NCBI GenBank assembly: GCA_000247545.1
Contig: CP003316.1
Span: 1,025,233-1,089,232, forward strand
Source of the DNA: Pyrobaculum oguniense TE7
GTDB lineage: Archaea > Thermoproteota > Thermoprotei > Thermoproteales > Thermoproteaceae
Direction of reading: 5' to 3'
DNA: 64,000 nucleotides
The notes below the pieces were generated by a model, which worked only from the letters and a program-made list of their open reading frames with translations, was not told the origin of the DNA and ran no database searches. Positions 5,308 to 10,075 of this stretch are shown here, piece by piece. The stretch's first letter is position 1. The number at the start of each line of letters is the position of its first letter. Position numbers and translations under genes: made by a program.

Positions 5308-6642
5308 GTGTACAAGGTAAGGATTAGGGGGATCTACGCCACGGCCTTGACTAAGCTGGCGCTGGACTGGGGCTTCAAGGTGGTGCAACCGACAGAGAAG
5401 ATTGCCCGCCGCTTCGGCCTAGAGCCCGACTTCTCGCCGCCCAACATCACCGTGAAGGACCACGAGTCTAAGACGGGGGTTGTGACGATGGGCCTATGCG
5501 AGGCGGTTGAGGCCTTTCTGTCAAAGCTTACGGAGTACGCCGACCCCATCGTGGCTAGGGCCAGGGCCCGGCTTAAGGAGGTTTTCGTGGGCAAGGCAGT
5601 GGGGGAGGCGGCTGTGGAGGGGCCAGGCGGGGAGGTCTTTGACGTGCCCCGCCGGTATGTTTTGACCCCCGGCGCAACGGGCATCTACACAGTGGTGAGG
5701 CCGCCTATCGGCCCCCTCAAGGGCGTGGCGGCCCCCGAGATCGTGGTTGAGGGGCAATACGTCGAGCTCAACACCACGGGCCGCGTCTCCTACAGCGAGC
5801 ACATACCCCCCGAGGAGGCGGTCCGGCTTAGGATCCTCGCCGAGACGAGGCTCAGGCAGTACGCCTCGATAGGCCTTAGGTTTAAGTCCTCCGCCCGCTA
5901 CGCCCCGGACGACGCCATCGCAGCGGAGGCCGAAGCGCTTTATAAGGAGATGCTTGAAATCTCAAAGGGCGGCCCCCCGGGTCAGGTGCTTAGGCGGGGG
6001 AAGTGCTTTGCGGTAGTCCTCTTCGACTCTGAGTCGAAGGCCAGGCTCGACGAGGCAAGGGCCGCCGCTGCGCCCACCGTGGGGGGCCACCACGCACTTA
6101 GGGCGCAGGGCCTTGGGAAGTGCCTAGACCTCCTCGACCACGTCGGCGGCGACGTCTACGAGAAAGCTGCCGAGTTTTTGGCGGGAGAGGCGTCGGCGGT
6201 GTACCACGTAAAGCCGTGGGGCGAGGTGGTGAAGATGCGGGCTGAGCCCGTCGGGGTGAGGGGCGGCGCCTTGGTGCTGAGGAGGCGGCTTAGGCCAGGC
6301 GGCATGCTTGACGGCATCGGCGTTAAAATAGAGAGGGGGTTCTACGCCTTGACGTGCGTCCCACGGGAGGAGGGCTACGTCGTACACACCTACTACACAG
6401 CAGAGGGGAAAGCCGTGGGGACGTACGTAAACGCCAACACGGTGCCCGAGTGGGGCCGCCGTGTTATCTACATCGACCTATTGGTGGACAAGGCCTTCGA
6501 CGGGGGAGGGGAGAGGGTGCTTGACCTGGATGAGTATGAAAAATACGCCGAGATGTTCCCACAGAGGCTGAGGGACCCCCTTAGCAGACTGCCCAAGACG
6601 CCCATATGGTGCACCGAGGAGGGCATAAAGACGATCGCCTAG
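5308..6642 (+). CDS. FAU-1 type ribonuclease/RNA-binding protein
   Basis: 444 residues matching the archaeal FAU-1 family in length and layout: an RNase E/G-like N-terminal half (opening MYKVRIRGIYATALTKLAL, with VYKxx-VRPPIGPLKG further on) and a C-terminal DUF402 domain containing YALTCVPREEGYVVHTYY and VIYIDLLVDKAFDGG. Known members bind AU-rich RNA and process rRNA precursors. GTG start 22 bases after the centre of CTTAAAAAAT, consistent with a leaderless mRNA. Divergent from the SDR gene, sharing about 100 bases of promoter region. Confidence 0.88.
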   Translation: MYKVRIRGIYATALTKLALDWGFKVVQPTEKIARRFGLEPDFSPPNITVKDHESKTGVVTMGLCEAVEAFLSKLTEYADPIVARARARLKEVFVGKAVGEAAVEGPGGEVFDVPRRYVLTPGATGIYTVVRPPIGPLKGVAAPEIVVEGQYVELNTTGRVSYSEHIPPEEAVRLRILAETRLRQYASIGLRFKSSARYAPDDAIAAEAEALYKEMLEISKGGPPGQVLRRGKCFAVVLFDSESKARLDEARAAAAPTVGGHHALRAQGLGKCLDLLDHVGGDVYEKAAEFLAGEASAVYHVKPWGEVVKMRAEPVGVRGGALVLRRRLRPGGMLDGIGVKIERGFYALTCVPREEGYVVHTYYTAEGKAVGTYVNANTVPEWGRRVIYIDLLVDKAFDGGGERVLDLDEYEKYAEMFPQRLRDPLSRLPKTPIWCTEEGIKTIA

Positions 6643-8671: not shown

Positions 8672-8781
8672 GTAGAGGTCAACTAGATTTGGTATATAAG
8701 CTTGAAAACGCTCTGAAAATTTTTAAACCACTCTTTACACGGTGTTGAGGAAAAGTTATATTCTTGTATTATGAAATCACT

Positions 8782-8792
8782 GTTATAAAAAT
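8782..8792 (+). promoter_or_regulatory. TATA element of the structured RNA
   Basis: GTTATAAAAAT centred at 8787, about 22-25 bases before the first paired base of the GC-rich RNA. No start codon with a good frame follows at this distance. Confidence 0.55.
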
Positions 8793-8808
8793 AGGTAAGT
8801 CTTATTAC

Positions 8809-8954
8809 AACCCGCGTCGTCTAGCCGCCCCCGGGCCTAACCCGGCCGGGCCCCGACCCGGCTGGGAACAGGGGGATAAGCCGACGGCGCTGGACGGGTC
8901 AGCCCGCCTGGCGTTGCCGGCGAAATCGGCGCCGACGGCTGGGCGGCGCGGGTT
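8809..8954 (+). ncRNA. Predicted structured non-coding RNA, class unknown
   Basis: This 146-base block is far more GC-rich than its AT-rich flanks. Its ends pair: 8809-8815 with 8948-8954 (AACCCGC/GCGGGTT), then 8824-8830 with 8941-8947 (GCCGCCC/GGGCGGC), leaving an eight-base bulge on the 5' side. Inside are a hairpin 8845-8850/8857-8862 (GCCGGG/CCCGGC), a CGGG-UCAG-CCCG hairpin at 8895-8906 and GGCG/CGCC at 8910-8913/8930-8933. A TATA box lies at the right distance before it and a T-rich run follows directly. It lacks the conserved RNase P core and the SRP helix-8 sequence I would expect. Could be a Thermoproteales-specific RNA. Confidence 0.6.
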
Positions 8955-8964
8955 CTCTTTTCTA
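8953..8964 (+). terminator. T-rich terminator of the structured RNA
   Basis: TTCTCTTTTCT begins where the closing stem ends, the arrangement expected for archaeal oligo-T termination. Confidence 0.5.
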
Positions 8965-9034
8965 ATCTCCCAATATAGAGACTTGCCCTAGATGTGGCAA
9001 GCTCCGTGTTTTATTTAAACTCCTTGGATGCTAC

Positions 9035-10075
9035 ATGGGCTTCGACTACTTGCTGTTTTTCATAATTCCCAACCTCGCCGGGGGCTTGTACATACTCCTA
9101 GCCGCGTTGGGGCTGTCAAGTGGCCGTGTGAGGCACAGCGCGAGGCCCGTTGACAACTACTTGGTGGTGGTTGTTACTGTGGGCAACGAGAGGGTCCTCC
9201 CGGCGCTTCGGGAGACCGTGGCCCAGCTTGAGAGGCTTGGCCTCCGCTACGTGGTTGTGTCGTCGAGGCCGCTACCCTTAGGCAATGTGCTGGTGGTGCC
9301 GAGGGAGGCCGATGGGACTAAGTACAGAGCTATTAAGTGGTTTGTCGAGAACTACGCACGAGCAGATATGTGGTACATATTTCTCGACGACGACAGCTAC
9401 CCGCTGGACAGCGGCTTCCTCCGCGACATCGCCTACTACGGAGGACGGGGGTATGTGGCTGGGAACGGCATAATTGTGCCGAGGCCGGGAAGATCTGCGC
9501 TGGCGTATGCCCTTGACTGGGTGCGGTACTTCCACGACTTGACGCTATACCGGTTCGCCCTGGAGGTTTTGAGGAGGCCTATCTTCGGGATGCACGGCGA
9601 GCTTTTGATAGTCCGCGGCGATGTTTTGAAAGAGGTGTGGCCTGCCATGGGCGACACGGTTGCTGAGGACTTCCGCTTCGCCATGGAGCTGGCCAAGAGG
9701 GGGTATAAGACCTTCCAAACGGCGACGCCCGTCTCTATAAAAAGCCCCAACAGCCTCGCCGACTTCGTGAGGCAGAGGGCCAGGTGGGCGGCTGCCGTGG
9801 CGGAGGCTTTTAGGTACCGCAACCCCTACTACCTTGTTCTAATTCTTGTAGTGCCAGCTGTTCTCTGGCTGGGGGCACTCGGAGGCTCCTCCTACGGTTA
9901 CCTCGGCACACCACAAGCTGTCGCCGCGATGTATTTGGCAGTGTACACATACGGAAGTATAAAAGCCAGGAGGTATATAATCGACGTCTTTGTGGCTTCC
10001 CTCCTAGAACTTGTCGGCCTCGCCGTAGGGATAGTCAGAAAAGCCGCCAGCTTCTACATAATCGACAAACGCTAG
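9035..10075 (+). CDS. Membrane glycosyltransferase, GT2-like
   Basis: 346 residues: one N-terminal membrane helix (5-27), a GT-A catalytic domain with the metal/nucleotide-binding DDD at 118-120 (FLDDDSYPLD), the catalytic-base region GDTVAEDF (206-213) and a (Q/R)xxRW acceptor motif as RQRARW (246-251), then two or three C-terminal membrane helices. This is the layout of processive GT2 enzymes. It probably builds a surface polysaccharide or glycolipid from a nucleotide sugar at the inner face of the membrane. ATG about 20 bases after TTATTTAAAC. No other polysaccharide gene is adjacent. Confidence 0.85.
   Translation: MGFDYLLFFIIPNLAGGLYILLAALGLSSGRVRHSARPVDNYLVVVVTVGNERVLPALRETVAQLERLGLRYVVVSSRPLPLGNVLVVPREADGTKYRAIKWFVENYARADMWYIFLDDDSYPLDSGFLRDIAYYGGRGYVAGNGIIVPRPGRSALAYALDWVRYFHDLTLYRFALEVLRRPIFGMHGELLIVRGDVLKEVWPAMGDTVAEDFRFAMELAKRGYKTFQTATPVSIKSPNSLADFVRQRARWAAAVAEAFRYRNPYYLVLILVVPAVLWLGALGGSSYGYLGTPQAVAAMYLAVYTYGSIKARRYIIDVFVASLLELVGLAVGIVRKAASFYIIDKR

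Follow-up and report, generated by a model that had tools for sequence, protein, structure and literature searches.

A covarying, GC-rich structured RNA gene of Pyrobaculum and Thermoproteus with a conserved putative promoter

The HgcC to HgcG RNAs of Pyrococcus and Methanocaldococcus are stand-alone, structured, GC-rich orphan RNAs with AT-rich flanks, as is the RNA described here. Closer to it in lineage is the type T RNase P RNA (RF02357), which is likewise compact and GC-rich. Comparative genomics has also yielded Pyrobac-1 (RF01722), likewise a stand-alone structured RNA of Pyrobaculum (Weinberg et al. 2010, PMC2864571), and the Pyrobac-HINT motif is a candidate structured RNA of the same genus given as probably cis-acting (PMC2864571). 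Other small noncoding RNAs of the genus are the H/ACA-like sR201-sR210, which are hairpins with a K-turn (PMC4652768). The noncoding RNAs of Pyrobaculum oguniense were said to be the most extensively annotated of any crenarchaeon, and the published list has 145 RNA genes: 3 rRNAs, SRP RNA, RNase P RNA, 48 tRNAs including a pseudogene, 83 C/D and 9 H/ACA RNAs (PMC3558965).

We analysed a 64,000-nt stretch of P. oguniense TE7 DNA (the window), in which positions 8809-8956 on the + strand almost certainly are a gene, about 147 nt long, for a structured, trans-acting noncoding RNA; we infer the exact ends of the transcript. This RNA is not among the 145 published genes, and we found no description of it in the literature; its transcript may have been seen earlier (PMC3388794). 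A GC-rich structured RNA at 8782-8964 had been proposed in an initial annotation, and covariation in 20 copies bears it out. The GC-rich block between AT-rich flanks that was noted then is likewise evident, at 76% GC as against about 26% GC in the upstream flank. The P. oguniense block folds with a z-score of -4.25, none of 200 dinucleotide shuffles being as good, and relatives give z-scores from -5.9 to -9.1. The covariance-model match is 123.7 bits on the + strand versus 35.6 on the - strand. The block is not a coding gene, which the initial annotation had named as a possible refutation: copy lengths differ by non-multiples of three.

Searched at the BLAST level, 10 of 11 Pyrobaculum genomes have the block, some of them twice. 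A covariance model built from 13 copies (R1) reached a second genus, which we take to be Thermoproteus, and a second model (R2) was run against 39 genomes of the order and 398 of the phylum. The RNA occurs in 15 genomes, 10 of the 11 from Pyrobaculum and 5 of the 6 from Thermoproteus, which together have 20 copies; G003, G006, G009, G013 and G016 have two each, and R2 found no convincing copy in the other 383 genomes of the phylum. The earlier suggestion of a new Thermoproteales RNA family therefore stands as to novelty, there being no Rfam match, and falls as to an order-wide range. No clear copy was found in the Pyrobaculum MAG G007 (93% complete) or in the fragmented Thermoproteus assembly G011 (99% complete), so the RNA is not strictly universal in either genus. 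At the syntenic place in G007, between kinase and glycosyltransferase genes, there is other sequence and no RNA. In G011, a GC-rich foldable element follows an AT-rich stretch (L233:5877-5977, G011:C139; 30.8 bits with R2) and is perhaps a decayed relative of the RNA. Phage and plasmid records gave no match to the RNA.

The features of the locus, in window coordinates and all on the + strand, are as follows.

8766..8772, +, GTATTAT, upstream promoter element and candidate transcription-factor site; GTAWTAY in most copies
8778..8789, +, CACTGTTATAAA, BRE-like segment and TATA box; 20-26 bases before the RNA
8809..8956, +, structured RNA gene; covariance-model match, 20-copy alignment A4, paralogue similarity ending at the borders
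8810..8827, +, 5' strand of closing stem P1; 11 of 17 modelled pairs with compensatory changes, 98.5% of cells paired
8828..8875, +, P2 arm; CCCCC/GGGGG base, internal loop, variable apical stem
8876..8879, +, junction linker J2/3, AUAA; AUAA in 12 and ACAA in 3 of 20 copies
8880..8921, +, P3 arm, about 19 bp, central A.C mismatch, variable loop sequence; 8 of 18 pairs covary
8922..8925, +, junction linker J3/4, NAAA; [GCUA]AAA in 17 of 20 copies
8926..8935, +, palindromic hairpin P4, UCGGCGCCGA, 3 bp with a GCGC loop (UCG-GCGC-CGA); identical in 19 of 20 copies
8936..8953, +, 3' strand of closing stem P1; covariation in alignment A4
8954..8967, +, putative pyrimidine-rich termination tract (TCTCTTTTCTAATC); conserved pyrimidine content

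The fold is a four-way junction in which P1 closes and encloses P2, P3 and P4. Where two closing stems of 7 bp with an eight-base bulge had been drawn, P1 instead runs unbroken for about 18 bp (8810-8827 with 8936-8953); the internal hairpins, of which at least three had been counted, are P2, P3 and P4. The P2 internal loop reads GGGCCUAA/AACA in P. oguniense and is UAA/GAC-like in several relatives. Pairs of the P2 apical stem covary (columns 35-100 and 43-92), and the outer arm is variable, with about 30 extra nt in G003 and G009. At the central pair of P3 (columns 129/143), 14 copies have A.C, 5 have G.U and one has G-C. Protonated A.C and G.U have the same geometry, and the wobble shape may be the conserved feature at this position. 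The one deviating P4 is CCGGCGCCGG, a compensatory change, and P. neutrophilum no longer has the AUAA linker. The apical loops L2 and L3 vary freely, whereas the junction linkers and P4 are near invariant.

Compensatory changes, with both sides changed, occur at 25 of the 50 predicted pairs of alignment A4, and 97.1% of cells hold standard pairs, in an alignment of 20 copies that was fitted to R2 and is hence somewhat favourable to the structure. The 96 compensatory cells compare with a mean of 29.8 in column shuffles, none of which reaches the observed values, and with at most 19 when partners are slid by 1-3 columns. Covariation is likewise present in MAFFT alignments fitted to no model, and the column pairs that covary most strongly almost all belong to the proposed structure. 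The covariation test among relatives that had been suggested for this block thus came out strongly in its favour. On the + strand there are 96 G-U pairs versus 16 A-C mismatches, which indicates that this strand is the one transcribed. The same ratio bears on whether the block could be a DNA-level feature, either a small mobile element or a cruciform. Extra copies in five genomes and shifting genomic positions would suit such an element; however, an excess of G-U over A-C of six to one on one strand is not expected from selection at the DNA level, the promoter is conserved along with the RNA, and paralogue similarity stops at the RNA borders. We regard a DNA element as very improbable.

The TATA box (TTATAAA at 8783-8789) had been described as lying at the right distance, and it does so in nearly every copy, in register across two genera and the diverged paralogues. 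When 17 non-redundant copies are aligned ungapped on the 5' end of the RNA, each TATA column from -26 to -21 carries 1.0-1.5 bits. The distance from GTAWTAY to the TATA box is about constant in most copies, diverged paralogues included. The combination GTAWTAY-N5-CACTGTTATAAA is unique in the P. oguniense genome within 2 mismatches, the sole further site having 3, and the combined GTAWTAY/TATA promoter was not seen in the upstream regions of RNase P RNA genes. It seems, therefore, to be specific to this RNA rather than a common promoter of stable RNAs. As a promoter in its own right, window 8766-8789 appears to be a gene-specific archaeal one, with a conserved element just upstream of BRE/TATA. 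At the other end, the closing stem is followed in P. oguniense by TCTCTTTTCT, and the first 14 bases past the model end average 78% pyrimidine in 17 copies, in keeping with the T-rich run reported earlier at the end of the closing stem. Judged by these sequence signals, the RNA would have its own promoter and terminator, conserved along with it.

Against known RNA classes, none of 4227 Rfam families matched anywhere in the window at gathering thresholds, or at the RNA itself in six relatives, and near the block only chance-level matches appeared at E up to 10. ARAGORN found no tRNA in the window, and there was no Rfam match to tRNA, 5S rRNA or SRP RNA in the window or, in relatives, at the RNA itself; the type T RNase P RNA model (at least 60 bits) did not match in the window either. 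The initial annotation had likewise seen none of the conserved sequences of tRNA, 5S, SRP and RNase P in the block and had called for an Infernal search of Rfam. Between 8500 and 9300 the Pyrobac-1 model (at least 40 bits) matched nowhere, even at an E-value of 10; unlike the new RNA, Pyrobac-1 has 60 positions and occupies other places in the same genomes, its best places in P. oguniense being at 1401543 and 1419049. Pyrobac-HINT, like the new RNA, is not in Rfam; it is tied to a HINT gene by its name, whereas the new RNA has no constant neighbour gene in the loci examined, which speaks against identity of the two. HgcG gave a 12-bit, chance-level match to the P. oguniense region, mostly on the AT-rich flank. 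In contrast to the K-turn hairpins of sR201-sR210, the new RNA has four helices closed by an 18-bp end stem. There is no H/ACA ANA box after P1, where the 3' end reads GGGUUCUCUUUU; by inspection, the P2 internal loop is without the tandem G.A pairs of a K-turn, and neither a C box (RUGAUGA) nor a D box (CUGA) occurs in 8809-8956. The RNA thus appears to be a new family of a known general kind, the stand-alone structured noncoding RNA.

One resemblance did emerge from the searches. In many genomes 23S rRNA scores 21-34 bits with the family model, each time over the same stretch, as if the RNA mimicked or derived from a 23S domain and served to decoy a ribosomal protein or a processing enzyme. 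A sequence-only profile search of that stretch, however, gave E-values of only 0.09-0.3, and the antisense strand of the RNA gene itself reaches 35-55 bits, so that structure alone accounts for about 30 bits. Kinship with 23S rRNA was accordingly rejected as a structure-level match unsupported by sequence, and the decoy role is quite improbable. Kinship with 5S rRNA, suspected from constant 124-nt side matches, was dropped as well, the side matches being 23S.

The genomic context argues for an independent transcription unit. In Pyrobaculum the main locus adjoins genes for RNase W/FAU-1 (DUF402), a GHMP kinase and often a cyclase, and the other side varies; in Thermoproteus all neighbour genes differ from these. 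Paralogue pairs are alike in the RNA and the few bases next to it, sharing essentially no flank. Unrelated neighbours, together with similarity limited to the RNA, define the transcription unit and strongly disfavour a role in cis. For example, the RNA might be taken for the leader or riboswitch of the glycosyltransferase gene downstream (9035-10075), since it immediately precedes that gene in P. oguniense, in G002 and at one locus each of G003 and G009. In other species, however, the next gene differs or points the opposite way, the Thermoproteus contexts are unrelated, and the pyrimidine tract ends the RNA. No constant position upstream of homologous genes, as in a riboswitch, was found. Followed as a route to relatives, the glycosyltransferase led to one MAG, without the RNA. 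A leader is therefore scarcely credible; the RNA is a four-helix, independent transcription unit and not a leader or riboswitch.

RNase W/FAU-1 has a reported role in rRNA maturation (PMC11602121, PMC5627344), and its homologue in the window (5308-6642, a DUF402 match) keeps synteny with the GHMP kinase gene across Pyrobaculum. In most Pyrobaculum main loci, 1-3.6 kb separate its gene from the RNA, and a functional link was considered. It was rejected, the RNase W-kinase pair being kept in G007 without the RNA and the enzyme gene not being near the RNA in Thermoproteus. Because this neighbourhood persists in G007 without the RNA, we treat it as passive synteny.

As to function, the variable L2 and L3 and the fixed junction and P4 suggest a protein-binding or tertiary core rather than an antisense seed. 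We consider it probable, on the strength of the sequence comparisons, that the transcript is a stable structural RNA serving as a ribonucleoprotein scaffold. P1 would hold the RNA ends together, with P2 and P3 as rigid arms, and the AUAA and NAAA linkers, P4 stacked on P1, and the A.C/G.U wobble of P3 would form a protein recognition site; we infer the protein binding from the conservation pattern alone. The self-complementary loop of P4 could also join two RNA molecules. A specific transcription factor at GTAWTAY probably sets the RNA level. More tentatively, the RNA could be the core of a novel archaeal ribonucleoprotein, or an RNA dimer formed through the P4 palindrome, specific to Pyrobaculum and Thermoproteus and with a role unlike those of known archaeal RNA classes. 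The P4 motif proved far too unspecific as a probe for viral contigs.

The gene stands alone under its own, possibly regulated promoter, as would also be expected of an antisense RNA acting in trans by pairing with mRNAs or rRNA. Neither L2 nor L3 is conserved, however, and the conserved unpaired stretches are only the 4-nt linkers and the GCGC loop; with no conserved unpaired seed of at least 6 nt, this mode of action becomes less likely. Moreover, the rRNA operon does not contain the P4 palindrome, and antisense matches to rRNA reach at most 12 nt, the longest falling inside the non-conserved P2 arm. An antisense role is thus rather unlikely. The near-invariant junction and P4, the A.C/G.U switch in P3 and the rigid arms could instead belong to a catalytic or ligand-binding RNA, in which the four-way junction would be the active centre of a ribozyme or of a stand-alone sensor. 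Only about 8 unpaired positions are near invariant, though, and there is neither a double pseudoknot or other known ribozyme layout nor an Rfam ribozyme match, which leaves this reading doubtful at best. A strongly covarying GC-rich RNA with a distinctive promoter of its own, present in nearly all Pyrobaculum and Thermoproteus genomes examined, suggests a function that has been overlooked.

Type T RNase P RNA is also present in Caldivirga and Vulcanisaeta. In all 11 Pyrobaculum genomes it has a locus separate from the new RNA (in P. oguniense at G000:C1:2039224-2039431, 215 bits), and cmscan shows no similarity between the two. The overlap of lineages could suggest that the new RNA acts in trans in place of the specificity domain missing from the type T RNA. 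The order of its arms is unlike that of the S-domain, however; G007 has the type T RNA without the new one, and no copy was found elsewhere in the order, whereas the type T RNA extends to Caldivirga and Vulcanisaeta. Such a substitution is highly improbable. Three Pyrobaculum genomes have 133-nt places with sub-threshold type T similarity of 24-28 bits (L247:174-306, L248:150-282 and G009:C5:153146-153278), and the two of these places that were scanned had no other Rfam match. In G003, a second, shorter gene resembling type T RNase P RNA (L043, G003:C1:567368-567547) scores 84.8 bits against a cut-off of 60 and occurs beside the normal one.
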